Of a stretch of 64,000 nucleotides of DNA, positions 4,677 through 49,479 are shown in pieces. The stretch is taken from positions 19,960,848 to 20,024,847 of the forward strand of contig NC_045141.1 in NCBI RefSeq assembly GCF_008831285.2, read 5' to 3'. The stretch's first letter is position 1. Each line of letters starts with the position of its first letter. The translations under genes and the position numbers were made by a program. The notes beneath the pieces are model-generated. The model saw only the letters and a list, made by a program, of their open reading frames with translations, did not search any database and was not told the DNA's origin. The stretch comes from Nymphaea colorata. Lineage: Eukaryota > Streptophyta > Magnoliopsida > Nymphaeales > Nymphaeaceae.

Positions 4677-7600
4677 TTAGGACCGCTGTCCGGCAGCTCC
4701 CCCAGCCATCACCAACCTAGCTCTTAAAGATTCAGGATCTGATATCTTCTTGCAGATGCTGACAATACACAACAGAGAATATATCAGGAACTGGTTGATC
4801 ATGTGAAGTAGCATCCACATAATAAAGCAACTAAAAACAGGAATATAGGATATGGTTTTTGAATAGAAAAATTATTTACCATCATTTCCGTTCACTGAGA
4901 TGGAAAAGTAAAAAAGCGAGAAATTTACAGATACACTTAGAATTTAGAAACCACATTTTTCGTATATTATACTCACAAGATGTAGTAATGATGTAAAACA
5001 AATATACAGTTGATAGCAGAAAAGTACGAAAAGCATAAAGCATCCTTTGACAAAAAGCCCCACAGATGTTCTTTTATACGTGAACCGGCAAAATCAACAC
5101 CGAATGCTTGTTTTAGAGAGAAGTCAAACGCTTATCGGAAAGTAACCGACACCCTACAGGAGCTAGAGAAACTCCTTAATCATGATCGAAGTGAAGTAAT
5201 GTACCCTACAGGAGCTAGAGAAACTCCTTAATCATGATCGAAGTGAAGTAATGTATCTACACTCAGCAAAATTTTATTTTTGCAGAATATTGATGAAATT
5301 TGATTGTATTTGAAATAAAAAAATTATACAACCGCTGGCAAAGGATTCTTACCAAAATACAAAATCACCACCTAGCTTCTTCTCAGAAATCCAATCTGGG
5401 ATCATCTCTTGCAGCAGTTTCAATTGTTCTTCAATTTCCCCTGCAACAACTTATCTGATCAATTTGGATCTAGTTCACATATGAGGCAGCTTTAGGAGAA
5501 ATTTGAGGTTAGATCATATCAAGGGTATGCATTTTATCCGTTTGCTGCAAGCCACTGCAATATCCATAGCAATCTTTCAACAATGTTCTCATGGTAGGGT
5601 CTTGAAAAAATTGCTTTTCATGAAAACCTTTTGAAAATTTCAACTACTGAAAGTATAGAAAATACTAAAAACATATGAAATAAAGCTCTCTTGTAGAAAC
5701 ACAAGAAACAATTGCAGAAGTATTTAGTATGCAAAAGAAAATAAAGATATAATAGACGACATTCAACAGAACATACAAGAGAAAAATAAAGGACCTGCAA
5801 AAATATTTTATTATTTCTCATGGTATTTGCTCGGAGTTATCAGCAAGCTAAAATGGAGCTTATGCGCTATTTTTCAGATTATCGTGGAGGTCTGTAACAA
5901 GTTTCAACTATGAAGCCAATTCTGGCTTGGAAACTCCACAGTCCGTTGGCAGAAAATAACCATAAAACAGCAGTACATCCAAGTCAACTTCCACATTCCA
6001 AAAAAAAAAAGCACAAAAATAATTCCAATGAAAATCTAATTTCATACCTCTGTCAACAATGTCAAGATCCTTTGCCATTATTTTGTATATGAGTTCCTCT
6101 TTTGTAATGACAGTGCATCTAGCAGCCTGAAATACGACGTAAATCATATCAAAGAGCTTGGGAATGCAATTGATCATCTTGTTGTGTGCCTTTGCTTCAT
6201 TTTCCACCATCTTTTTCCTTTCCTTTTCATCCAACTGTCAAAAACATACAACGGCCACCACTTTCAGAGTTAAGGAGGATCAATCAAAAGAGATGGACAT
6301 GAAATGCCAAAACATAGCCTAGAAAAATATGCAAGCCACACCGATTTTAGCAGCGTTGGAGGAAGTGTCCTGACAATCTCTTCATCTGTAGACAATCTTC
6401 CTTTTCCATTTTCTTTTTCCACTGAATTGATAGGTGAAAGGAAATTCAGAGCCTTTGGCCTAGTGACATGCCTCTGTCCTTTGGTATACAGTGTAGAACT
6501 ACTTTCTGGAGTCACCCTAGCTCTTTTAGGAGTTAATAGACTTGGTGTGCTAGACATCAATAATCTCGCTGGAGTGGAATCAGGTTCTCGAGTAGGAGTT
6601 TCAGATACTTCCAACCCTTTTCTTGAGCAATACAGATCATTCTTGATATTTTCACCTGCCTTTGAATCACCAAGAGGAGTTGAGTCAAGCTCCTTTCCAA
6701 GCATGGAAGCTTTTGTTGGCGTTGACTCTATGGATGAGGCAAACGAAGAAATTTGGCCGCTGAAAGGTTCCAAAGAATCCATTTGGACATTGCTGGGTGA
6801 GTCTTCAGTGCTGGAGGTGGCTTGGGGATTAGGTCCATCGCTAAGACTAACTTCCTGTGCTGTTGTTAGAGACAAGAGCTGGGTCTTCTTAGATTCTGAA
6901 AGAGGAGTTTTCTGGGTGAACCGCCTCTTGAACCGGCTCAAGAAACTCCCTAGAGGTGGTAGAGCTACGTTTTCAATTGCTGATCCATCAACAGGTCTTG
7001 AGGAGGAAGAATTTACTCCATGGTCAAGATTGACGTTGATCCTACATTCTGGCACGACCGCATCATGACATGCTTGTTGTAATTCTCTGAATGTCTCTGG
7101 CAAAATCTCCTCTGGAATCTCAGCATCCTGAAATGCGGTGAAAATAATTAGTTATCGGGAGTAGGAACAGTAAGAAACTAACATGATTGACAATAAATAA
7201 ACAAGATGGAAAGGCCTATAAGTGGAAAATGAGAACCTAATAGCAATATATATCTGACAAGAAACACGATTCCAACTATCAGGTAAAGAATCCACAAATT
7301 ATAAGGAGTTCAAAAGTTCTTTGCTTCTAACATAGGCAACGCAAATCCATAAATATCATCTAATGAACAAGTGAAATTTTGGTGGGCAATTCAACATCTT
7401 TTTCTGCTTATGACTGATAAATTTTCTAGAAGGCGACCAATCCGAAGAATACATATTTTCCAAAAGGTAACTTCAATGTGCAGCACAAAAAATCGTAAAT
7501 TATTGAGACAAGCTCCCCAAGTAGGATTCTACTGTTTGGGCAGCACAAACGCTAAGGTGATATGGTCAGATTTCTCATATGTTCATTAAGGTTTCCTTTT

Positions 7601-9157: not shown

Positions 9158-10006
9158 TAGGGCTGGCATCGGGCCGGGCCAATGTAATTTCGGACCTCGG
9201 GCTTTCGTTAATGTACGAAGCCCAGCCCGATTGATAATGGGTCGGGCGAGCTTAGTCGGGCTTTTGGGCGGAGCATGCTTGTTTCTCACGATAGTTGCCA
9301 GCATTTCACATGGCAAAGCAAGACGTAGATGAAAGCTTCAAGGGTAGGGGGCTGCAGATGAGAACTTCAAAGGGTTTCAGTGCATGCAAGAATTTTCATG
9401 CTTGAATGAGATGGCGGAGGCAAATCCTCTTCTTTCTTCTCCTCCTTCTCGCAAGAGAAATGATCAAGTGGTTGTGGTAGACACTTCATTAGAATGCAAA
9501 ATCTGGTGATGAAATGAAAAAATGATCGACTGGTTGCGATGATAACAAGAAGCGAGGGAGAGAGTGATGAAGAGGCGGTAGCGAGGGAAAGGAGCGCGAT
9601 GGAAGAAGCCCTAATGGGCAGAAAAAAAAATCATCGAAAAAAAGTCAGACCTTCACGGCGATGGCGACAGTGATGGGTAGGACGGAAGGCTGACGGGGAG
9701 GACCGAAGGAGGCAACTGAAGGCCGACGAGGAGTAAGAGGCAGTCTCGACGACGGGAATGAAACTTTTAACAACAAAAACTGCAAAACCCTAAGTTACCT
9801 AACTTTATTTTTGTAAAAAAAAAATACAATAATAATAATGTCGAGCTTCTCGGACCGCCAATTATCACAGCAATTAGCCCGAGCACGACCCGTTATTTAC
9901 CAGGCCGGGCCAAGCCCGAAACTCAAATTTTCAAGGCTCGGGCCCGAGCCCATGGCGGGCCGGGTACCGCGTACCCGGCGGTAGCCCGGCCCGATGCCCA
10001 GGCTTA
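9158..10006. mobile_element. Non-autonomous hAT element, 849 bp, perfect 8-bp TSD
   Basis: It is flanked by CTCGAAGC at 9150-9157 and 10007-10014. The left end is TAGGGCTGGCATCGGGCC; the right end on the other strand is TAAGCCTGGGCATCGGGCC. The terminal 150-230 bp are saturated with GGGCC/CGGGC motifs and align with the ends of the hAT element at 35789-37075, including an internal TTAGGGTTTTG tract, so the two belong to one family. There is no transposase. The middle differs from the other copy and holds a short frame (9411-9509) starting MAEANPLLSSPPSRKR, which could be captured host sequence or a transposase remnant. It sits between the divergent CDT1 and receptor-kinase genes. Confidence 0.85.
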
Positions 10007-10014
10007 CTCGAAGC

Positions 10015-10391
10015 GGCCGAATTAGTAATATCTCAAAAGAAAAGGAGTATATTAAAAATGCTGAAAAATAGAAGCAGTTTTGGGGGTAGGTGCGGGAAAG
10101 GAAGGACTGCGAAACAAAATCGTTCGTCCTCGGTGCTCGCATTGACGTGTCTGAAGAAGAGAAGGCAAGTGCGGCCATAGGAGACCTCAATCAATGGAGT
10201 AAGCCGACACGGCGAGAAGGGAGGAAGTTGAGGACGAGGATGACGAAGTCAATGCACAACAAGGGCTGGGAAGAGGAAAAGAAGGGCTCCAATATCTCGA
10301 GGGGAAAGAAGACAATGTCCCAGCTCCTCTGGTTTCACCGTGAACGTTTTCTCCATCTCGCTCCTCCTCTGTTTCCTACTTGGCACTTCCA
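10015..10391 (+). other. Promoter/leader of the receptor kinase
   Basis: About 380 bp lie between the hAT target duplication and the kinase start codon. The DNA is purine-rich and holds overlapping open frames without known domains. A TATA-like GAGTATATTAAAAATG lies near 10043-10058, about 340 bp upstream of the ATG, so the leader length is uncertain. Confidence 0.4.
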
Positions 10392-12981
10392 ATGGGAAGA
10401 AGAAGCTGGCGGCTCGCGCCCGCTCTCCTCATGGCGGCGACAGCCGGGATGCTTTTTGCCGTCGTGTCGTCTCAGCAGCCGTCCGTGCTAAAAAGGGGAT
10501 CTTCTCTCTCCGTCGAGAGGTTCGCCGACGACGTTCTCATCTCGGAGGGCGGCACCTTCAAGACGGGGTTCTACCCGGTGGGCGACAACGCTTTCGCCTT
10601 CGCCGTCTGGTTCACGGAGCCGGCCAACGGGACGGTGGTGTGGATGGCGAATAGGGACCGACCGGTCAACGGCAGGGAGTCCCGGCTGGAGTTCCGGAGC
10701 GGCCAGGTCGCCCTGATCGACGCTGACGGCAGCATCGTCTGGGCCACCAACACGAGCGACGTCGATGGCGTCGTGGCTGAGCAGATGGAGATTGGGGAGG
10801 ACGGGAACCTCGTGGTGAGGGACAGGTTGGGGAAGGCGTTGTGGGAGAGCTTCGATTTCCCGACCGACACGCTTCTGGCGTTCCAGGGGATGACGAGATC
10901 CAAGAGGTTGGTGTCGAGGAGAGCGGCTGAGGACTACTCATCGGGGCCATACCAATTCTTATTCGACGACGACAACGTGCTCAGTTTTCTGTACGAAGGG
11001 TCGGACTTGTCCAGCATCTACTGGCCCAATCCCGACATGGACATCTTTGGGAACGGCAGGACCAGGCAAGTCTACACAATCTCATTTGTTCCCTTGACAT
11101 GATTAGGATCATACCGTAATAACATTTGCTTTGAAATATCTAATACGCAATTGTAGTGTTCACTGAACTAAAGTTCATTCAACATATGGCTTCTGCTTAA
11201 CTTGCACGTTTGCTTATAAGTTGATCACAATGTAATTCTCCAGTAACTTTTTTGTCATTAGGTATAACAGCACCAAATATGCCAGTTTTGATGACCTGGG
11301 TCGATTTACCTCTAGTGACAATTTGATCTTTTCTGCGTCAGACGTTGGCCTGAAAAACAAGAGAAGGTTAACTATGGACTATGATGGAGTTCTCAGGCTA
11401 TATAGTCTTAACAGTACAACAAAAAGTTGGGAGGTTACATGGTTGCCGGTGTTGGAGAGGTGCAGAGTTCATGGCCTTTGTGGGGAAAATGGGATTTGTT
11501 TTTACAACCCAGAACCTGAATGCACTTGCCCTCCTGGATTTAGTATGAAAAATAGAACCGACTGGACTCAGGGATGCCAACCAAATTCCAAGATTGTTTG
11601 CAACGATTCCCGAGTACAAATTGTTAAACTTCCTCATACTGACTTCTACGGTTATGATATGAGCACATACAAAACAGGTGTATCATTTGAAGCATGTAAA
11701 AACATTTGCACGAGTGACTGTAAGTGTCGTGGTTTTGGATATAGGTTAGATGATGGATCTGGATCTTGTTACCCAAAGAACATTCTTTTCAACGGTCAAA
11801 CTGGTCCTAACCTTCTTATTGACATTTATATCAAAGTTTCTTCAGTTGGGAACTTTAACAATTATCTGGAAGGTCAATTCCACACTGATTGTTCACTGGC
11901 AAATTTGAGCATCATTAGGGCTGGAGTTTTTTCTAGTGGCAATGTACAGGGTGACTACTTGAAACTGCCAGTTGGATTTGTCATTGCCATTGGCCTAGTT
12001 GAAATCATATGTCTGGTTTTTGGGTGGGCTTACTTACATAAAGAGTTGGGCCACATTCACAACATTGGTCAAGGTTATACGGCCTTAAGATCAGGATTTA
12101 AAAGATTCACTTACAAAGAACTGAAAAGAGCTACAAAGAACTTCAGTAGTGAAATAGGAAGAGGAGGTTCAGGGGTGGTTTATAAAGGGGTGCTGGAAGG
12201 TGAGGTTGTGGCTATCAAAAGGCTAGAGGATGTGCATCATGGAGAAGCACAATTCTGGAGTGAAGTGAGCATCATTGGAAGAATTAATCACATAAATCTA
12301 TTGAGACTGTTGGGTTTCTGCTTTGAAAAACAAAGCAAGCTTTTGGTTTATGAATTCATGGAAAATGGATCCTTAGAGAAGAACTTGTTCAACAGTTCTT
12401 CAACTCTTGCTTGGGATAACAGATTTAACATTGCTTTGGGCACAGCAAAGGGTCTCGCTTACCTGCATGAGGAGTGCTTAGAATGGGTGCTTCACTGTGA
12501 TATCAAGCCTCAAAACATACTCTTGGACAAGGATTTCACCCCAAAAGTGGCTGATTTCGGTTTGTCCAAGCTTCTAGATAGAGGTGGAACAAATGTTTCT
12601 AGCTTTTCTAGAGTGAGAGGAACGAGGGGCTACATGGCTCCCGAGTGGATATTGAATCAGCCCATCACATCGAAAGTGGATGTTTACAGCTATGGTATTT
12701 TGGTGTTGGAAATGGTAACTGGGAGAAGTTCAGTTGGATTTGAACAGGTGGATGACAACGGAGAGATTCGTTCTGCACAATTAATCCCATGGGTCAGAGA
12801 AATGGTGGGAACAAGGCAGCAGTGGATAGAAGAAATAGCTGATCCAAGTTTGTCAGGGATATATGACAAGCTGAAGATGGAAATCTTGGTTAAAGTGGCT
12901 TTGAAGTGTGTCGGTGAAGAAAGGGATGCAAGACCAACAATGAGCCAGGTTGTAGATGCTATAACGCTCGGATGCCAATAG
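10392..12981 (+). CDS. G-type lectin S-receptor-like Ser/Thr kinase (ZmPK1 type), 797 aa
   Basis: This is a plasma-membrane receptor kinase. Exons are 10392-11065 and 11262-12981; the intron is GC-AG (CCAG/GCAAGT...TTAG/G), joining NGRT-R-YNST in frame. Order: signal peptide (1-26), B-lectin domain (about 35-155), S-locus region with WESFDFPTDTLL, EGF-like CRVHGLCGENGIC, PAN domain with paired cysteines (about 337-420), one membrane helix (about 460-482), kinase (about 518-790). The kinase looks active: G-loop GRGGSGVVYKG (524), Lys544 in VAIK, HCDIKPQN (His636), DFG (Asp656), GTRGYMAPEW. HCD in place of HRD makes it a non-RD kinase, common among immune receptors. ATG 10392 is chosen because a typical hydrophobic signal sequence follows it. 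Exon 1 is GC-rich while exon 2 is AT-richer. Members act in defence or stress signalling; the ligand is unknown. Confidence 0.93.
11066..11261 (+). other. GC-AG intron of the receptor kinase
   Basis: The donor AG/GCAAGT matches the strong GC-type donor consensus and the acceptor is CATTAG/GT. Only this junction restores the family sequence across both exons. No suitably placed GT donor keeps the frame. Confidence 0.8.
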
Positions 12982-13400
12982 TGCCATGAAGAGGTTGCAA
13001 GATTTGGGAGTTACGTCCTATATATTTGATTTGGTATGAGTAAATTATTCTTATTGTGCGAAACTGGATAAGCCTATGGAAATAAAGCTGTTGTTATAGC
13101 TATGCTGTTCTATTTTGGTGTTTGACTTTTTAATTAAGTGTTTGAATTTGTTTTAATGCTTAAATTTTTTTCCTGTCGATGGCCAACTTTTAGAGGGAGT
13201 TTCTGTCTCTGTTTACATGGTTTGTGTCTCTGTTTACATGTTGTGTATACTAGTGCATGCACCATTCGGTGCCTGTGTCCACTCCAGTGTCTAGTCATTG
13301 GGACTTCTAATCTCTTTTTTTTTTTTTTTACATGAACTATAAGGAAATGGTTAAAGCATCAATTAGGCTACTGAAAAAACGATTGTCAAGCAGCTGTTAT

Positions 13401-13518
13401 CCCCCCAATGGTATTACTGTGTTCCTTTCAATTTCCTTACTTTCTTAGGATAAAGATTTCCCCCCAATGGTATTACTGTGTTCCTTTCAATTTCCTTACT
13501 TTCTTAGGATAAAGATTT
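13401..13518. repeat. Perfect 59-bp tandem duplication downstream of the kinase
   Basis: Units 13401-13459 and 13460-13518 are identical, each starting CCCCCCAATGGTATTACTG and ending GATAAAGATTT. The location is the 3' flank about 420 bp past the stop codon. Confidence 0.9.
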
Positions 13519-16483: not shown

Positions 16484-18250
16484 GACTTTGATCTCGAGAT
16501 GTATCTGAGGCCGGTTAAAGAATTTGGCCGTGTCTATGTGGTGAAATTTGTATGCCCAAGGACTAGCTAGCGTAGACTAGGGGTGTATATATATAGTGAT
16601 TAGACTGATCCCAAGATGACTGAAGATTTCAGTTCCTATATATATATATATATATATTGGAAACTGCAACTCAATAAATCCAAATCTAATCAAACAATTC
16701 AAAAGTTAAAGAGTGAAGTAAAGTAGAAAAAGCAATCGAGACACACATCTAAACCCAACGCAATAGCAAAATATGGTGCAGAAATCAGTCGTGTCAATTA
16801 TGAAAAGGTAACTAGTCATTTTGAACCTAACCTATGCAATGGATTAAGATGTTTCCGTATTAATTAATATTAGCATAACAGAGGACTGCAACTAAAAGTT
16901 AAACTGACAATAAATACCAATTGAAAAAGGACAAGGACAAGACAAATATGAGATAAAAGAAAAAACGTGTTCATGGAGAGCAAGGATGAAAAAGAAGAAA
17001 AAGGAAGGGGATCATTTTTTTGGGAAGGCTCACATGCAAGAGTAGAATGAGGGTCATAATAATTTCTTTTGTTTCTTAAAACAAGATTAAACTACACTTT
17101 TTTTTTTTTACTACAAATAAGCATATTGATGCCCCTAAGTAAGTACATGGATAAACAGGCCATGGAAAATCCTTATTGTCGTCTCTCATCTATTTAGAGC
17201 CATTAATTAAGCTTAAGCGATCTTTATGCTGCAAAAGGAAGGCCACCTATTTGTGGAGAAGACACCCAAGGTATAGAAAGTAGACCTTATACTTTAGGGC
17301 TACAAAAGGGAGACCACTGATTCACAAGTTAGAGCACTATGGTAGAGGAGGCACCCCAAGGTATAAAAAGGACGTTATACTCTAGAGAATGAGAAGTTGG
17401 GTGAGGGCTTCGGCCTTTTGTTAGATAGTGAAAAACCCCGCTTATTCGAAACTAAGCTTAAGTGGTAAAGCTTAAGTAATATCTATGCTGCAAAAAAAGG
17501 GCTACCGATTCACAAGTTGGAGCACTATCGTGGAGGAGACACTCCAAGGTATAAAAAGCAGACTTTATATTTTAGAGGATGAGAGGTTGGGTGAAAGCTT
17601 CAGCCTTTTGCCAGGTAGTGGAAAACCTCGCTTATTCGGAACTAAGCTTCATCGATAAAACTAGCCTATTGATCCAAGAAGCCGCTTAGGGCTGAGATGG
17701 GTGGACTTTTCGCCACATAGGATGCCCATTGATCCCAGGACCAGAGTATTGGATAAGAGCGGAAATAAGAAACAAAGAAATAAAAATGGTGTGAAACAGA
17801 ATTGCGGCAAGAGAAATAGGAGATGCCAAATTGCCAATGTGCAATAATTGAAGCAATTAATATTATGTGGACAGTTGCATTCCAAGTGGGTGATAACTAT
17901 AATGGATTATCATATTTTAGATCTAAAAACCATGGAAATATTATCTCTTGATGCTTGTCCTTACTGCGAAGAATTAAAGAAACAACAAACCAAAGCAGCT
18001 GGATGGGTGTGACGTTTGTTAAAATAAATAGAGCCTGTTTTTTATTTTCGTCACCTATTTTCTCCACGTTTTCATATTATTCCTTTTTATAATTTTTTAC
18101 TGATTATGGCTTCACTATCTTTTATTTTATTTTTGTTTTTTTATTCTTTAATCTTTAATAGTCCTCAGGCCTTTCCTTCAAATCCAAAATAAGGCTTGTG
18201 CTTTCTCGATATGAAGCTTTTAATACCCCAACTTATACCGTATCGTGTTT
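16484..18250. repeat. Duplicated noncoding block, copy 1
   Basis: This block aligns over its length with 22297-23591. Shared landmarks in the same order are GACTTTGATCTC, GACTAGCTAGCGTAGA, a TA run, GGAAACTGCAACT, an A/G-rich tract with GAGAGCAAGGATGAAAA, ACTACAAATAAGCAT, TTTAGAGCCA, a 49-bp identical stretch (17832-17880), AAAAACCATGGAAATATTA, and GGCTTGTGCTTTCTCGATAT. It carries an extra insertion of about 450 bp (17212-17660) absent from the other copy. Short open frames in the block keep identical silent positions between copies but are not otherwise protein-like. Confidence 0.8.
17212..17660. repeat. Insertion with two tandem ~200-250 bp units in copy 1
   Basis: Unit 1 (about 17212-17466) and unit 2 (about 17467-17650) share TTTATGCTGCAAAA / TCTATGCTGCAAAA, GATTCACAAGTT(A/G)GAGCACTAT, CCAAGGTATAAAAAG, GAG..GTTGGGTGA and CGCTTATTCG(A/G)AACTAAGCTT. 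Unit 1 has an inner duplication of the CCAAGGTATA(G/A)AAA segment. The insertion interrupts copy 1 relative to copy 2. Its class is unknown. Confidence 0.65.
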
Positions 18251-20497
18251 GCTTTCTAGCGTTCACATTGGCCTCACTAGTTCTCAGGACTCTTATTAAG
18301 TTTTAACCGCACAATGCTTGGATAAATTGCTTCAAGACTGACTGCTACACATTTTGGTTTATTTACGAATCTACAAAAATAATTCCAATGAACATAATTT
18401 CATAGCGTTGATCTAAATATCATTTGAAATGAAATAAATTAAAGGGCCACAACTTATATATATATATATATATATATATACGTAATCGATTGATTAATGA
18501 TTCGTTGACTATGTTGGTAGCTTGTTAATTGATCAAATCGGAATGACCAGGAAGCAATATAGAGAGCTAAGAGTCGTACATAGGTAATTGACAGATTAAT
18601 TATTTTGATTTGTCCATTGTGTTTGACAGCTTGTTTCAATAGGGAATAACTGATAAGTTGTTTGAATTTGAACGCCTATTTGTTTGTATTGCTCAGTTCC
18701 ATGTGTTGATTGATGCCGGGAAACTTGTTCCATGAAGACAAGCGCCAAATAGAAGAACAGTAGGCAACATGGAGACGATTATTATAAAGGACAAAAAATA
18801 ATGCACCTAAGCCTGGATGGTGGAGAAAGGTTATTCTGATACCTGTAGGCTTAATGCAAGTAGGTCGGATCTGGCTTGAAGATTTTGTCGATTTTTTAGA
18901 TTACATGGAAACAAATTTTATCTGTTCCTATTGCATTTTTCTGTACCGAATCCGATCATTGAAACCCTAATGACAGCTACTACTTGTAAACTATTCCGCA
19001 GGAATCTTGCAACGTTACAGAAACTTTAGATCATTGAACGCTCGATGTTGATGATGAGGCTTCATTTTCTTAATTAAGCTGAACGTATGAGAAACTCATT
19101 ATAAGAACATTGTGTTCTTGAAACATTTATTCCTATACTACACGTTTGAAGAACATAATTTGCATGGAGTAATTTCTGCGGCAAGAACATAATGTTCTTA
19201 GATTATTGGTTCTAAAGATATATATTCTAAGAGCATAATGTTTTTCTTACCAAACGCTTTTTCGAAGACATAACTAGGACACCACTTTCTCTTGTTTAAT
19301 TGATTTTGAAGTTTTAATGAACTGCCGTTTTACTTAGATTCAGAAACCGGCTGGGTTTTGTAGATTTCAGAATTTGCAGTCGCTGTTTCAGAATTTGGGT
19401 TTCTCTGACATTCTCAAACAAACGTAACCCCGAGTTTTAAATAACTGAATAGTATAGTAAATATGTCATTGTTTCGATCACGTTCACCACAAACAACAAA
19501 AACTCCTCAATCCCCCACTTCTTCTTCTACTGTTTCAACATTCCAAGTTTTTCTCACCAAAACGAAATCACAAAACTCTTTGTATATAATCTTTTAGTGA
19601 CATTAAATTCGGTATCGTAGTCAAGTCCAACCAAGCAGTGGCGGAAATACATGGAGGCTGCCACGAAAAATTTCATTAGAAGGGTTCAAAATCATGATAT
19701 GGTTACTCAAAAAGACTTAAAGTCAGTCCTTCCCGAGACTAGTTAGCCTTTTGTGATATTTCATTTGATCATTTAGACCCTTGTTTATATTTCGGATCCC
19801 AAGATCCATTTTCCTTTTGTTGAGACGAGGTATAAGTACCTCACGTGAGATTTTATTTACTAGCTTTTGAGATTAAGAGAAAAAGAAGAAACGTGAGTTA
19901 GAGAATAGCTTGGGATTATACTATTGATTTTTCATTGTTATTCTTTAATTTTCAATCAAGATTCGTTGATTTTTCATTTGTAATTGATTACCACTGCATC
20001 AGTTTCATTTTAAAACTTTCATTTGCAATAAACAGCAGCAATTCATTCCAAACACAAGATTAGTTGTTTATGGAAAAACATGATTCAAAGTCAAGTTGCT
20101 GAAAGGAATTCGCGACAGTGAGATCTAAGCAGACTGGATACCACTTTCGATCTTTTAGAAGGCCAGAGAAAGGTACGACGCAAATGTGAAAGTAACATTG
20201 CCACTAAAGGGGCAATAACTTTTTCAAGAAAGTGGCTGGCCGTCTTTCAGAAAGCAGTTTTTCCAAAGAGCCAGGTCCACGCTATAAACGCCGAAAGTTT
20301 GATGCCTTTCCCATTCAAAGGCACGATCCTACTTTGTACTCGCAATCGTCGCCTTCAAAAATTTTGGCGCACCATTTCATTTCCCGGTTGCTCGGTATGC
20401 TCTTGGTGGGTGCAAGAAGCCCTTCCAAGAACGGTTGAAACCTTTCCTTTCTGGGGACAGTGATGTCTGAGGTTGCTTCCGTGGTGCTCTCGTCTAT

Positions 20498-22397: not shown

Positions 22398-22432
<35 letters not shown>

Positions 22433-23591
22433 GAAACTGCAACTGCAATTCAACGGATCCAAATCTAATCTAACAATTCAAGACCTAAAAGAGTAATGTA
22501 AAGTAGCAAAGCCATGGAGACTCCCATTTAAACCACATAATAGCAAAAGATTGTGGGCATCACAGTGCATGTTATTTAACTAAATCAGTCATGTCAAAGG
22601 TTACCAGGCATTCTGAACCTGACCTATACAAAGTATTAAGAAATTAGTGTATTAACTAATGTTAAGACAAAAACGCCATCCAACTTGACTGCAACTAAAA
22701 GTTAAACTAACAATAAATACCAATTGAAAAAGGGCAAGGAAAAGGAAAAGGCAGAGATCAGGTTAAAAGAAAAGAAGTGTTCATGGAGAGCAAGGATGAA
22801 AAGGGAAGGGAATCTTTTTTTTTTTTTTTTTTTTTTGGAAGAAGGCTCACAAACAAGAGAAGAATGAGGGTCCAAATCTTTTCTCTTGTTTCTTAAGACA
22901 AGATTAATTTTTTTTTTTTTACTACAAATAAGCATGGTTGATGCCTCTAAGTGTATGATAAGCAGGTTATGAGAAGGCTTTATAATCGCTGTCGTCCATT
23001 TAGAGCCAGCAACTAAGCTCAGGCAGCATCGGATGCCCCTTGATCCCTGGACCTCTGTATTCGATAAGCGTCGACAATAAGAAATGAAGATATAAAAATG
23101 GCGTGAAACAGAATTGCGGCAAGATTGTGAGATGCCAAACTGCCAATGTGCAATAATTGAAGCAATTAATATTATGTGGACAGTTGCATCGCAAGTGGGT
23201 TGTAACTATAATGAATGATCATGTTTTTAGATTTAAAAACCATGGAAATATTAATCTCTTGATGCTTGTGCTTACTGCGAAGGATTAACTAAACAACAAA
23301 CAAAAGCAGCTGGGTGGCAGATGCACGCATGTTGAGATCGGGTGCGTTTGCTAAAATAAATAAAGAGCGACGCCCTTGTTGTTACCCTGTGTTCTTATTT
23401 TTATCACCTAATTTTTCCACGTTTTCCTATTCTTTCTTTTTATAATTTTTAACAGGTTACGATTTCACTCGCTTTTTTGTTTTTTGTTCTTAATCTTTAA
23501 GAGTCCTCTGACCTTTCCTTCAAATCCAAAGTAAGGCTTGTGCTTTCTCGATATGAAGCTGGTAACACCCCAACTTAGACTGTATCTTGTT
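22297..23591. repeat. Duplicated noncoding block, copy 2
   Basis: This copy partners 16484-18250 and lacks the two-unit insertion, so it better represents the ancestral arrangement. The 49-bp stretch at 23141-23189 is identical to 17832-17880, although flanking sequence differs by substitutions and small indels. No gene is recognised on either strand. Confidence 0.8.
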
Positions 23592-27480
<3,889 letters not shown>

Positions 27481-34698: not shown

Positions 34699-35137
34699 AG
34701 GATTCAACCTCAGTCACCAGGGTGCGTTTTTTTTGCACCCGCACCAGCGTCGACGCAACGCGGGTGCGGGTGTGACCCAGATTAGCATCCGCACATGTCA
34801 AAGGTGAGTCGGGTGCGGTCTGTACGTGCACCACACTTGCGTTTGACTCACGTCAAACACGAGTTGAGTGCGGTCAAACCGCACCAGGTCCATTTTTGTC
34901 CATTTTGGGGTTTTTTTTGTTTTTATTTTTAAGAAAATTGAAAGGGCACGAGACTTCGTTCGCCCCTTGCCACTGCTCTCTCTCTCTCTCTCCACTACGA
35001 TCATCTCTTCCACTGGCAGCTTCCTCTCCATCGGGCGACCGGCGTCCACTGCTCCCACAGATTTCTACCTCCACCAATGGCATCATCTTCGTCTGGCGTC
35101 CGCTGCTCTCTCTCCGATTTAGACAAACACATACCTG

Positions 35138-35260
35138 TCTCTCCGTCTGCTGCTCTTTCTCCATCTGATCGATCGTGTCTCTCCGTCTGCTGCTCTTTCT
35201 CCATCTGATCGATCGTGTCTCTCCGTCTGCTGCTCTTTCTCCATCTTGTGATCGATCGTG
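35138..35260. repeat. 40-bp tandem repeats inside the Mutator-like element
   Basis: The unit starts TCTCTCCGTCTGCTGCTC and ends GATCGATCGTG. Two perfect copies (35138-35177, 35178-35217) are followed by a third slightly longer one (to 35260) and degraded copies up to about 35350. The minus-strand reading of the array gives a repetitive charged frame, which is not evidence of a gene. Confidence 0.85.
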
Positions 35261-36367
35261 TCTCTCCGTTTGCTGCTCTCTCTCCATCTCCGATAAACTC
35301 TCTCTCTCAGTCTTTGCAGCAGTGTGTCTCCGTTTGTTGATCGATCGTCTCTCCAATTTTTTCTTTTTATTGTTTGATTCTGATATCGAGCTCCAATTTT
35401 GATTTCTCTTTGTTATGTCTTGTCTCTCTCTGCCGCAGGCAGCATAGCTATGTATATATACTTGACTTATGTGAACATCTAGCTTCTGCTTAACCAAAGT
35501 ACTGTTGGTTAGCTCTTAAAATGTGTTAATGAAACCACCACTTGTTTTTTTCTTGCTAGAGTACTGTTCGTTATCTTCTGTTTAATTCTTTAAGCCAGAG
35601 TACTGGTTTCAGTTATGCTACATTGAGAAAAATTGTCGAGCATCCTCTCCGTTGTTTCTTATTTCTTTTGTTTTATATTGATGAAGTGAATATTTATTCC
35701 CTTATTTCTTTTTGTCATATATATTATATACATATTATTAGTATTATAAATTCATAATAATAATAATAATAATAAATACTCTCGCCGCTAAGCCTGGGCA
35801 CCGGGCCAGGCTGCCGCCTGGTACTCGGCCGACTCGGGCCCGGGCCCTGAAAATTTGATTATCGGGCTCACCTTATCGGGCCCACCTTATCGGGCCCGGC
35901 CCAATAACTAACGGGTCGGGCTCGGGCCCGCAACTGTGAACATCGGGGGCCCAAGAAGCTCGACATTTTTTAATATTTTTTTTTTCAGTGATAAACTTAT
36001 GTTAGGGTTTTGAACTTTTTTGTTGTTCTTCATTCAGGACTACTTCGTGGTGCCTCTAAACTGCGTAGCTGCAAAGGCATAGCTGAGACGCATCGAATTT
36101 CATTCCTTCTCCTCCGGACGACTGAACTCGGCCTTTCCGCTGGTGTTGTTCTGCGGCTTCTGCCCATTGCCGGATTCTTCTCCCCGTCCATCCTTCTTGT
36201 AGCCTGTTTTTTGCCCCTTCTCACCGGATTCTTCTCTCAGTCCGTCCTTCATACAGGTGCCCCACTTTTCCCTCATTTCCCCCATCTTTGCCTTTTCCCC
36301 ATTTCCCCATTGCGCCACTTTTCCCCCATTTCCCCATCCTAGTTACTTCGTAAATGAGAGATATGCC

Positions 36368-36547
36368 ATGGCTAAGAAGAGGAAATCGGACATCACAGAC
36401 TTGGACAAGCTGGACAAGACCAAGTACGCCACCTTTTGCAGTTCGGCCAACTCTCCTTCGCAGCTGTACACGCAGGCGCAGAGCCAGCAGAAGCTCATGT
36501 TTCAAGCCGGGGAGTGCTTTGGAATGGTGAAAATTGACGCTTTCTAG
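36368..36547 (+). pseudogene. Captured N-terminal fragment of a conserved plant gene inside the hAT element
   Basis: The 59-codon frame starts MAKKRKSDITDLDKLD and contains YATFCSSANSPSQLYTQ and QQKLMFQAGE. From memory this closely resembles the N-terminus of a small conserved plant protein family with a MAKKRKSDAT..LDE..R start, often auto-named holocarboxylase-synthetase-like; I could not search for it. After QAGE the similarity stops and a stop codon follows within 12 residues, as expected if only the first exon was captured. About 300 bp upstream within the element may be captured leader sequence. Expression is possible but unshown. Confidence 0.55.
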
Positions 36548-36628
36548 AGGGTTTTGATTGAGGCGATATGAGTGGCTTTTTTGTTGTCCGGTTACCTTTC
36601 TTTGTTATATTTTGTGTTTCTTTAGAGA

Positions 36629-36776
36629 AAGATGCTTGTTCAATGGCATTGAGATGTGTTTGTTTGGTGCGAGGAATGGTCTATGACCTTTAATCAAGCT
36701 GTTACATGCGTCAAAGAAAGAAGATGCTTGTTCAATGGCATTGAGATGTGTTTGTTTGGTGCGAGGAATGGTCTAT
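36629..36776. repeat. 56-bp direct repeat inside the hAT element
   Basis: AAGATGCTTGTTCAATGGCA begins two copies of about 56 bp (36629-36684 and 36721-36776), separated by 36 bp, just downstream of the captured fragment. They appear identical. Confidence 0.85.
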
Positions 36777-37156
36777 CTGGAGTGGGGTGTTAGTTCTCCC
36801 CTTTTCTTTCTCTCGTTTTATCTGCTCTCAAAATTATCACTTTAAAATGAAAGTCATGTATTTTTTGGAACTGTGAATGATTTCACACTTCTTCATTCGC
36901 TAGAAAAAAGCCCGGCTGGCTGACCCGCCAAGCCCACCCGACCCGTTAATAATCGGGCCGGGCCGGGCCTCGGGCATAAGATCAAACCCGAGGCCCGATT
37001 CAGTACAGGCCCAGCCCGGCCCGATAAACTAACCAGGCTCAAAAACGGGCCGGCCCGGCCCAATGCCCAGCCCTACTCACCGCACCTAAATTTTTTGAGA
37101 TGTGTTGCGCCGGTACCCGCACCCGCATCCCGCACTTTGGTGACATAGGATTCAAC

Positions 37157-44352: not shown

Positions 44353-44848
44353 TGATAACGCACCAGCTCACTCTGGAAAATCAGGTGCGTCTCCAACGGT
44401 TCATAACTCCAAGAAATCAGGCGTGAATTATAACTGCAGGAAATCAGGTGTAACTAATATGGTAGTAAATCAAATCAGCCACGAGCATCAAGAGACTAAA
44501 ATGCATCTTGATAAGGCCCCAACAATAAAACAAAATTCCAACAATTTAAGTGCAACAAATATGGAAGCAAAGCCAATCGGACGAGCAACTAAAACGCCCA
44601 TTCACAATGATGAAAGATTTCAGGAGAATGTCAGTTTCTCCTATTCAAAACCAAAGGAGAAATTCAAGGAAACAGATTGTACATCCATGGAAACTAATTC
44701 AAATTCGAATCAGACATAGCAATGTATAAATACTATATTAAGGAAACCAAATCATCATGAAATTGATGACTGAGTCGTGGAGTAGGAATCTTTCTTTCGA
44801 ACCACGTTAATTTCTTGTGTTCATCGTCTTCATCCTTCTTCTTTGACA
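44353..44848 (+). repeat. 5' LTR of the copia element, 496 bp
   Basis: It starts TGATAACGCACCAGCTC and ends CTTCTTTGACA. It is the same length as the 3' LTR (48989-49484), with about 30 mismatches and no indels by hand count, about 94% identity. TG...CA ends are intact here. It is followed directly by the primer-binding site. Confidence 0.92.
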
Positions 44849-44861
44849 TGGTAACAGAGCC
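44849..44861 (+). other. Primer-binding site of the copia element
   Basis: TGGTAACAGAGCC starts immediately after the 5' LTR and resembles the usual plant copia TGGTATCAGAGC site complementary to the initiator Met-tRNA 3' end, with one difference. Confidence 0.8.
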
Positions 44862-44993
44862 ATAAAAGCTTCTAGGCGTGACTTTATCTGTGGCGCGTTT
44901 TGTACTGGAGACGACCTAGAAGTCGAGCTTGACGGTGTGGATTCAGGCAAGTGTCTACTATTTTTGGGCGCTAAGTATCCTTATCCTTCCACC

Positions 44994-47900
44994 ATGAATG
45001 TGACTAATTTCGTTTCAATCAAACCGTCACACAAAAATTTCTTGTTGTGGAACTTGGTCTCATAAAAAGCCAAGATCTGCTTGGGTTTATTGATGGTACG
45101 ATTCTCACACCATCTTCTACCATTGAATCTTTTGAGAATGGTGAAACTGTGAGACGACCAAACCTTGATTATTCTGCTTGGAAGAAATCAGACTGCCTTC
45201 TAAGAGGAGGGCTCACTGGGTCTCTCACAGAAGAAGTCCTTGGACTTGTCGTGGGACTTGAAACCCCTGAACAAGTATGGAAAACCTTGACAAGAGCATT
45301 CGCTCGTGAGTCAAAGGATAGAGAAATGATGCTGACAAGAAAACTACAATTCCACCGCAAACAAGGTAAACATGTGACTGAATATGTTACTGGTTTCAAG
45401 GCTATATGTGATGAACTTGCAACAATCGGGAAGCCTCTTGAGGATGACGACAAAGTCTTTTGGATGGTTAATGGTATCGGACCAGGATATGAGTCGTTAT
45501 GACTTCTATCCTCAAGCCACTGGTGCCCTCATATCTTGATGCAGTGTCACTACTTCAAGGGCATGAAACAATGGACTTGCATGTGGGAGAGGCTAGATTG
45601 AACAACCAAATGGTCTTCTTCACACAACAATCCAGCAATCAAACCAATAGAAAATGATACAACAATAGTTGATGCAATATCAATAGCAACAATAGTCGGT
45701 TCAACTCCAAGGGACATGAGTTCAATCCAGCTACTATGACTCAAAATCAGCAAGGATCGGCCAATGGAGAGACAAACAAATCCAAGGTATCATGTCAGAT
45801 TTGTGGACTAAATAATCATAATGCCTTTAAATGTTATCACAGATTTGATCATGCCTATCAACCACGTGATATGCCACGAGCATTTGTTGCTATAAAAATT
45901 GTTGATCGGACTCATCAACACTGGTTTTTTGACACCGAAGCAAGTTTCCATGTGACCAATGATCCAAATAAACTCAAAAGTTGCATTCCATATAAAAGAA
46001 CAAACAAAATCATGGTAGGAAATGGTCAATATCTTGATATTACACATATTGGAGTTGCCGATATTCATGTAGGAAATCGCACGATTCCTCTCGACAACGT
46101 TCTTGTTGTACCTAACATTAAGAAAAATCTGATTTCAGTTAGTCAACTCACTTCTACTATGCCTTATGTGTTTGAATTCTCTTTAAATTTCTTTGTTATT
46201 AATGACAATGAGACCAATGAAGTGATTGCAACAAGGTCTAGAGAAGGCGATCTGTATGCTCTCAAGCTAAAACCGAAGAATGTGTTTTTTTCAACATGGC
46301 TCCGATCAGCTCCCTTTGAAGTATGGCATGGACGTCTTGGACATCCACATCATAAAGTGTTAGATTTTATGACTGCAAGTAAGTTGAATACGATGACAGA
46401 AAATTTGCCTAAAATCTTTTGTCAGATGGGGAAGGCTTGTAGACTTCCATTTTTTCCTATTGATAATGATTGTGATTCTTTGTTTTCTAAAATACATTAT
46501 GACTTATGGGGACCAACTCCTATTGTATCTTGCCAAAATCTAAATATTATGCTTTGTTTGTGGATCAATTCTCTAAATATTCATGGATTTATCTTCTAAA
46601 ACAAAAATCTGAATTTTTTGCCAAATTTCTTGAATTTCACAAAATGATTCAAACACAATTTGATGCAAAGCTCAGAGTTTTTCAAAGTGATGAAGGGGGC
46701 GAGTTTAACAGTTTGGTTCTTACAGATTATTTAAAAGAGAATGACATCAAACATAAAAAATCTTGTCCTAAGACACCAGAGCAAAATGGTATGGTCAAAA
46801 GAAAACATAGATCGGTTACAGAATTCGGTCTCACTATGTTATTTCATAGCCATCTCCCAACTCAATATTGAGTCGATGCATTTTTCACTGCAGTTTGGCT
46901 TATCAACCGACTTCCATCACAAGTTTTACACATGCAAAGTCTGTATGAGTTGCTTTACAAGAAACGACCTGATTATTTTTGTCTTCGAGCTTTTGGATCT
47001 AGATGTTATCCTTACCTTAGCGGGTATATGAATCATAAGTTTCAGCCAAAGTCGTTACTTTGTGTGTTTATTGGACATAACAACATCATAAAGGGTATAG
47101 ATGTCTATATCCTCCCACTGGATGTGTATGTATCTTCCGTCATGTTGTGTTTGATGAAACCCATTTTTCCTACAAAAACACCATACCAACTCCTAGGCCC
47201 ATAACCTCTAATGCTGACTTTGTATCATTTTCAGATTCATCCAATGAGCTTCATCTTGAATCTCAACGTCTAGCCCAAATGCATAATACTGAATAGCCTT
47301 CTCCTTTGCCGCATATACCCATACCAACCCCTACATCACCTCTCCAACTCGAGCCACCCAGTTCACCATTAGTCCCATCGACTACCTCCTCCTCAATTCA
47401 TTCTATGACTACTCGATCCAAATCCGACATCATAAAACATAATCCTAAATATGCCTTCACCACTTCATTCATTCCACTTGAACCATCACATTACACCCTT
47501 GCCCTTAAACACCCAGGCTGGTATCAAGCTATGAAAGATGAAATGGTTGCTTTACAGGAAAATCATACTTGGGATCTCGTGCCTCATACACCAAACATGC
47601 ATGTAATCGGGAGCCATTGGGTTTTCAAAACTAAACTCAAAGGAGATGGGCAGCTTGAAAGGCTCAAAGCGCATCTCGTAGCACAAGGATATAACCAGGT
47701 TCAAGATTTGGACGTCTTGGAAACTTTCTCCCCAATGGTCAAGAATCGTTCTTAGCCTTGCCCTCACATTTAATTGTCCTGTAAAACAATTAGATGTAAA
47801 AAATGCATTTTTAAATGGGCATCTTCGTGAGCTGGTTTATATTGAGCAACCTTTTGGATTTAAAGATCCGTCCAAGCCAGATCATGTCTGTAGATTAAAT

Positions 47901-48952
47901 TGAGCATTTTATAGATTGAAACAAGCACCTCGAGCATGGTATGACAGATTTGCTCAATTTTTATTCTCTATGGACTTCATTTCCAGTGCCACTGACTCGT
48001 CTCTCTTTGTTCGTAGACAAAAAAAAAGGTCACCATTTTATTATTGTATGTTGATGATATCATTCTTACAGGAAATTCACATTCATTTATAATGTCATTC
48101 CTCGTCACCATCAAACAACAATTTGCTATGAATGATTTAGGTGATCTGAATTATTTATTGGGACTTCAAGTTGAACGGACTTCCAATGGCTTATTTATGC
48201 ATCAGTCTAAATATGTTGAAGACATTATCTCTAGAGTGCAAATGCAGCAATGTAAAATAGTGAGCACGCCTATTACTATCGGTTCCAAATCTCCTGAGGA
48301 AATTGATCCACCTTATTCCAATGCTACTGCATATCGAAGTTCTGCAGGGGCACTTCAATACTTGACCCTTACACTGCCAGATCTCTCCTATGCAGTAAAT
48401 TTTTCATGTCAATTCATGCATGCCCCAACGATGAAGAAACACATTATAAGATATGTTCGAGGCACGCCTCAATATGTTATCCAGTTCTATAAATCCCAAG
48501 ATTTGACTCTCCGAGCGTACTCTAATGCAAACTGAGCAGGCTGTCCAGATACACGCCGATCGACTTCCGGACACTGCACATTTCTTGGTCCAAATTGTAT
48601 ATCCTGGAGCTCTAAGAAACAACCGATTGTTGTCGCTCGTCCTATGAAGCTGAATACCGGGCCCTCGTCGGAGCTGCTGTTGAAATTAAATGGGTTACAT
48701 TTATTTTACAAGATCTCGTCGTTTACCTCTCCAAAGCTCCTATCCTTTTGAGTGACAACATTTCAACACTACATACCACTATCAAGCTAGTTTTCCATTC
48801 ACATATGAAACATTTGGGACTCGATTATCATTTTGTTCGTGAACAAGTCGCACTTGGAAATATGCATACTCATTTCGTCACAATTGAAGGTCAGATCTTT
48901 TTACCAAACCTTTGTCTCAGCAACACCTCACCTTTCTCATTCAGCATCTAGG
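44994..48952 (+). pseudogene. Decayed copia gag-pol region
   Basis: The gag start is at 44994 (MNVTNFVSI), with a frameshift near 45045 before the main gag frame (45047-45502). A zinc knuckle CQICGLNNHNAFKCYHR follows near 45795. The protease motif reads DTEAS where DTGAS or DSGAS is expected. The gag-pre-integrase motif (VWHGRLGHP) and integrase start are in one frame up to 46599, then the integrase core shifts to another (46506-46871) with VDQFSKYSWIYLL and FQSDEGGEF. The catalytic Glu of the usual ERK(H/N)R motif is Lys (MVKRKHR). A TGA interrupts near 46870. Reverse transcriptase is split by further stops and shifts (RT start near 47515, YVDD box at 48047), then RNase H. Several independent lesions make self-mobilisation impossible. 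Confidence 0.9.
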
Positions 48953-48988
48953 CTTACGTATGCAACCTTCCCTTCGGTTGCGGGGGGA

Positions 48989-49479
48989 TGATAACGCACC
49001 AGCTCACTCTGGAAAATCAGGTGCATCTCCAACGGTTCATAACTCCAAGAAATCAGGTGTGGATTATAACTGCAGGAAATCAGGTGTAACTAATATGGCA
49101 AGAAATCAAATCAGCCACAAGCGTCAAGTGACTAAAACGCATCTTCATAAGGCTCCAGCAATAAAACAGAATTCCAGCAAATTAAGAGCAACAAATATGT
49201 AAGCAAAGCCAATCAGACGAGCAACTAAAACGCCCCTTCACAATGATGAAAGATTTCAGGAGAATGTCAGTTTCTCCTATTCAAAACCAAAGGAGAAATT
49301 CAAGGAAACAGATTGTACATCCACGGAAACTGATTCAAATTCGAATCAGACATAGCAATGTATAAATACTGTATTAAGGAAACTAGATCATCATGAAATT
49401 GATGACTGAGTCATGGAGTAGGAATCTTTCTTCTGAACCACGTTAATTTCTTGTGTTCGTCGTCTTCATCCTTCTTCTT

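Follow-up and report, generated by a model that had tools for sequence, protein, structure and literature searches.

A Probable Pack-TYPE hAT Element of Nymphaea colorata Containing the First Coding Exon of a TAPR1-like Gene

Introduction

An open reading frame that begins MAKKRKSD lies at positions 36368–36547 of a 64,000-nucleotide stretch of the Nymphaea colorata genome, referred to here as the window. The question raised by this locus is whether the frame is a gene, or a piece of a host gene carried inside a transposon, and whether it has a function at present. Gene capture is on record for hAT elements, less often than for Mutator elements, and Mutator-type ends are accompanied by a 9-bp duplication. 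The genome searched was the window's own assembly (408 Mb, 783 contigs), and the match counts given below are lower bounds.

The hAT Element and Its Relatives

The frame lies inside an element with the following features; a relative of the element in the same window is listed last.

35789–37075, plus strand: non-autonomous hAT element (Pack-hAT), 1287 bp, with termini TAAGCCTGGGCA... and ...GCCCAGCCCTA
35781–35788, unstranded: target-site duplication, left copy CTCGCCGC, 7/8 identical to the right copy
37076–37083, unstranded: target-site duplication, right copy CTCACCGC
35789–36367, plus strand: hAT 5' part, the family's non-coding leader region, with blocks that match relatives
36620–37075, plus strand: hAT 3' non-coding part, with stretches that match L029, L030, L031, and L032
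36629–36776, plus strand: repeat within the hAT 3' part, with identical 56-bp copies at 36629–36684 and 36721–36776, 92 bp apart
9158–10006, minus strand: hAT relative that does not contain the captured piece, 849 bp, with GCTTCGAG on both sides (8/8)

The termini are short inverted repeats of the hAT type, and nearly the same ends are found in the window relative and in three relatives elsewhere (L006, L011, and L012). The target-site duplication has the 8-bp length of the hAT superfamily and is imperfect, with 7 of 8 positions alike. A preliminary description of this DNA claimed that the element ends match a relative that lacks the insert. This is confirmed by the window relative (read from 10006 to 9158 on the minus strand), which has a perfect duplication and no MAKKRKSD frame. 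It shares about 240 bp of the left end of the element (68%, E 9e-23) and also the right end. This relative is situated just upstream of an S-locus-type receptor kinase gene at 10344–12978, which has B_lectin, S_locus_glycop, PAN_2, and kinase matches.

Relatives of region 35789–36367 are present on contigs C1, C2, C4, C6, and C7, from which the five sequences compared here were fetched, and at a sixth place on C14. The matching blocks are 35789–36019, 36106–36202, 36222–36272, and 36342–36367, not every block being found in every relative. Three of the five relatives (L004, L006, and L008) follow the element to 36366/36367 and diverge where the likeness to the donor gene begins. L006 measures 1517 bp, and its duplication is perfect. 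The place of L004 holds a 5476-bp element (L011) with the duplication TTCCTGTG twice (8/8), and that of L005 a 5862-bp element (L012) with a 7/8 duplication. At the places of L007 and L008 (L013 and L014) no pair of ends was found, and the scan of L029–L032 found no duplication pair. The transposase frames of the relatives were scanned as separate open pieces. L011 contains PF05699 (5e-27) and PF14372 (6e-21), L012 contains the same two domains (7e-30 and 1e-18, respectively), and L031, whose likeness to L011 is 87% across 2122 nt, contains PF05699 (4e-29). L031 matches the 3' part of the element downstream of its transposase domain. The ends, the 8-bp duplications, and the transposase of the full-length relatives place the family in the hAT superfamily.

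In the element itself, none of the five frames scanned has a Pfam match (the 59-aa frame and four more; four of the seven stop-to-stop frames, of 61–80 aa, were left out), and no transposase was found. The stretch 36273–36341 measures 69 nt in the element versus about 390–400 nt in L006 and L011, and after 36781 there are about 24 nt versus about 520 in L031. Stretches such as 36203–36221, 36273–36341, and 36782–36794 show similarity neither to the donor nor to the hAT relatives.

The hAT element is nested in an outer inverted-repeat element at about 34709–37146, with ends CTCAGTCACCAGGGTGCG and, inverted, (CT)ATGTCACCAAAGTGCG, flanked by a 10-bp direct repeat, AGGATTCAAC, of Mutator-like length. 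This reading is rivaled by the best-scoring one, 34709–37148, in which the flanking repeat is the 8-bp GATTCAAC, of hAT-like length, and the ends are alike at 14 of 20 positions. On its left side, at 35107–35289, the outer element contains a tandem repeat with a unit of ~40 bp.

The Captured Segment and Its Donor Gene

When the genome was searched with 36030–36547, matches were obtained at no fewer than nine places, namely the window, C6, C1, and six with leader-only matches inside 36106–36202. The best host match is on C6 (L009), with 93% identity over 36366–36535, and a paralogue on C1 (L010) is 76% identical over 36368–36535. Of the at least nine rows from a search with 36366–36690, four are hAT 3' sequence and two are pieces of the donor; the others are the window, its own repeat, and the paralogue on C1. 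By its similarity, the C6 locus is identified as the donor of the captured piece, which is made up as follows.

36366–36621, plus strand: captured host DNA from a TAPR1-like gene (donor L009, C6), comprising the coding part of exon 1 and some of intron 1
36368–36526, plus strand: exon 1 coding part as copied from the donor, 53 codons long and reading MAKKRKSD...QAGECFGM where the donor has QAGERHGM; 11 of 159 nt differ
36527–36621, plus strand: intron 1 of the donor as copied, from which 120 bp are deleted at an ambiguous point within 36527–36535; 36528–36621 differs at 3 of 94 sites

The likeness to the donor falls into two parts, 36366–36535 (93% of 170) and 36525–36621 (96% of 97), between which 120 bp of donor intron 1 are missing from the element. 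Over 36368–36621, 14 of 254 sites differ, a count that is the same for a deletion point after 36527 and for one after 36535. The capture starts 2 bp before the start codon, and at each junction 2 bp are common to both partners (CC at 36366–36367 and CT at 36620–36621). Because both flanks match hAT relatives and the middle matches the donor, the order along the element can be read from these similarities as hAT 5' end, then exon 1 and intron 1 of the donor, then hAT 3' end.

The proposal in the preliminary description that a host first exon was captured inside a hAT family is upheld by the donor on another contig, the transposase-bearing relatives, and the junctions from transposon to donor and back to transposon. 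A plant gene does match the frame, namely the host gene on C6 with 93% DNA identity. The element does not merely sit beside a full normal gene, the gene being on C6 and the element on C4, and the fragment comes from a host gene elsewhere. The comparison of 36030–36547 with the donor's first exon and leader holds for the exon part, which matches, and not for the leader part, which is transposon. Upstream of 36366 the donor locus matches nothing (E 1e-4), whereas hAT relatives do, so the stretch from 36030 up to the capture is not the donor's leader. No second chimeric copy appeared in the genome searches with 36030–36547 and 36366–36690, for which the matches are a lower bound; a single chimera was seen, a number that would fit an element that moved after the capture as well as one that did not.

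The donor looks like a normal multi-exon gene in gene models of donor and paralogue that were drawn by eye and by similarity. Donor exon 1 is MAKKRKSDVTGLDELDRTMYATFCSAANSLSQLYTQAQSQQKLMFQAGERHGM, followed by GTGAGA (GGAATG/GTGAGA), exon 2 is EKLYEWILKQHEEGSRVTAADVIAYLQ, between CAG and GTAC, and the last coding exon ends with SY and a stop codon. The exons of the C1 paralogue correspond to those of the donor. For PF15251 (TAPR1-like; Pfam cut-off 27), the C1 paralogue scores 28.3, above the cut-off, and the donor 22.6, below it; the captured 59-aa frame by itself gives no match. In both TAPR1/HAPSTR1-like genes (L009 and L010) conservation is much stronger in the first ~80 residues than in the remainder. 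TAPR1 is given as HAPSTR1/C16orf72 in the literature excerpted here, and HAPSTR1 is described in the excerpted text of PMC9834230 as conserved to certain plants, the descent of the plant lineage being uncertain.

The MAKKRKSD Reading Frame

The frame is present as previously described, with 59 codons at 36368–36547. Its length is uninformative, since 424 of 500 shuffled versions of the element contain an ATG-initiated frame of at least 59 aa. Codons 1–49 resemble coding sequence, with a GC3 of 0.82 and a codon log-ratio of 7.0 that was equaled in none of 5000 shuffles, the best of the five other frames scoring 2.2. On a shorter stretch, which had been ended wrongly, one reverse frame outscored the MAKKRKSD frame (7.0 versus 3.9). 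The coding origin of the frame is settled by the 93% DNA identity to the host gene over 170 bp.

It had been supposed that the frame ends abruptly after QAGE at an exon boundary. QAGE ends at 36514, and this boundary is not supported, because the likeness to the donor continues through codon 53, where the exon 1 copy ends four codons later at 36526, and then through intron 1 to 36621. The drop in likeness after QAGE consists of three substitutions in two adjacent codons (RH to CF), and the stop codon of the 59-codon frame at 36545–36547 is supplied by read-through into the intron. With splice-site scoring by base frequencies, the GT directly after QAGE scores -4.3 and the GT at 36527 scores 1.5.

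A small deletion that breaks the frame after QAGE was also considered and is ruled out, since the donor DNA shows the similarity to be in frame. In a test for a frame break that did not use the donor sequence, eight in-frame codons were nearer than chance (P 0.005), and an offset of -5 scored equally. The A-L-E codons near the supposed break, rare by chance (0.0008), favored such a break. A frameshift-aware alignment to a plant homologue was equaled or exceeded in score by 19 of 60 DNA shuffles and 20 of 60 protein shuffles.

Searches of Pfam, solved structures, viral contigs, and bacterial and archaeal genomes with the captured 59-aa frame gave nothing useful, and NCBIfam gave one weak match to a bacterial adhesin (E 0.015, 14 bits versus a cut-off of 850). 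The plant homologue used in the alignment above had no match in viral contigs or in bacterial and archaeal genomes. Its matches among solved structures were limited to a circular tendon repeat protein (E 6e-7, from weak repeats summed) and a protein with a beta-lactamase domain (E 0.94). A literature search on the family label PTHR33675 and on peptide strings found nothing relevant.

Origin of the Captured Segment

We consider it very probable that the locus is a Pack-TYPE element of the hAT superfamily in which DNA of a host TAPR1-like gene stands at the position of the transposase of full-length relatives, and that capture was followed by decay. In the mechanism that we prefer, repair synthesis would have switched template and copied donor DNA into a hAT element, and the captured copy would have decayed afterward. 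The 2-bp overlaps CC and CT at the junctions and the deletions at several points may be pointers to template switching, although overlaps of 2 bp are short enough to be due to chance.

The 56-bp repeat was also tried as a sign of template switching at capture and was dropped because its copies are too alike. If the copies had diverged as far as the captured piece, 3.6 to 8 differences between them would be expected (P 0.028 to 0.0003), and none is seen. The repeat may therefore have arisen after the capture, or it may have been homogenized.

A less likely origin, to which we give perhaps a minor share of the probability, is that two hAT copies flanked a donor stretch and were mobilized as one hybrid element. 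Such a model is described in the excerpted text of PMC8903248; PMC13317346, likewise excerpted, describes it for Pack-CACTA of Arabidopsis. In the present element, hAT 5' and 3' parts do surround the donor DNA. However, just ~376 bp of donor DNA would have been spanned, and 9.9 kb around the donor show no similarity to L011 or L012, a weak objection in that such copies could have excised.

The presence of intron sequence indicates that the copy was made from DNA or unspliced RNA and not from spliced mRNA. A processed retrocopy, with a hAT element landing around or into it, can be dismissed: the copy takes in the entire coding part of exon 1 and begins near the start codon, but it also includes 94 bp of intron 1, identical at 91 of 94 sites, no exon 2 follows exon 1, and hAT sequence adjoins both sides.

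Present State of the Element

The donor and the element differ in exon 1 by 10 nonsynonymous changes and 1 synonymous change, against 10 nonsynonymous and 20 synonymous between donor and paralogue (Fisher p 0.0014). Neutrality fits loosely, because a neutral simulation gives 3.7 expected synonymous changes and one is seen (P of ≤1 = 0.06). The comparison reveals no sign of purifying selection on the exon copy. At 11 of the 12 differing sites in 36368–36535 the paralogue sides with the donor, which indicates that the changes are mostly on the element's side. Eight of these 12 sites show C>T or G>A, four of them at CG, and over the whole captured piece the count is 9 or 10 of 14, depending on the placement of the deletion. 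The appearance is that of a silenced, decaying copy.

It is very improbable that the captured exon is functional, either as a short protein expressed from the hAT leader or as an exon trap that uses the retained GT. The ATG and the 53 exon codons are open, and a GT follows the exon copy (ATG/GTGAAA, compared with ATG/GTGAGA in the donor). Against a function stand the 10:1 ratio of nonsynonymous to synonymous changes, the prevalence of C>T and G>A differences, and a +5 base of the splice site that differs from the donor's. In addition, two ATGs, at 36354 and 36363, begin a different frame that runs over the captured start, and exon 2 onward is missing. We give similarly little credence to a transcript from the hAT leader that would yield sense RNA or small RNAs acting on the TAPR1-like donor, or would donate an exon and splice site; if such a transcript were active, the chimera would still matter to the host. 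Judged by its sequence, the element is now probably a non-functional transposon fossil, and annotators should be cautious with the 59-aa frame at 36368–36547, which is probably not a gene.

Relation to Known Systems

Pack-hAT elements, chiefly of maize, are documented in the excerpted text of Gisby and Catoni 2022 (PMC8903248). As here, non-autonomous hAT ends and an 8-bp duplication surround host gene fragments. The present case differs from those excerpted in that it belongs to another hAT family and is a single chimera, with the donor and both junctions placed. The Hatvine-6 transduplications of grapevine, as excerpted from PMC2528002, are likewise of a hAT family and have a variable interior, often with genic exon and intron sequence. 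In contrast to the element described here, in which Pfam found no transposase in the five frames, they share transposase sequence. The Pack-MULEs of rice, mentioned in excerpts of both papers, also carry gene pieces between inverted repeats, but their ends are Mutator-type, whereas the ends and the relatives found here are hAT. A literature search on the terminal sequence of the element, a weak test, found nothing relevant.

The element is an ordinary, well-resolved Pack-hAT and a further case of a known kind of gene capture. Because the donor, the paralogue, the transposase-bearing relatives, and both junctions are present in one assembly, the event can be dissected: the start 2 bp before the ATG, the run into intron 1, the internal deletions, and the changes mostly on the element's side.

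Other Repeats in the Window

A probable Copia-type LTR retrotransposon is situated at 44353–49288, where 300-nt direct repeats that are 93% identical lie 4636 bp apart with Pol_BBD and RVT_2 between them. Direct-repeat blocks at 16637–18258 and 22416–23600 occur in the same order, 5.3–5.8 kb apart and 78–92% identical, as an older duplication of a segment or an element. Two tandem duplications are perfect, one of 59 bp at 13400–13517 and one of 52 bp at 5151–5254.
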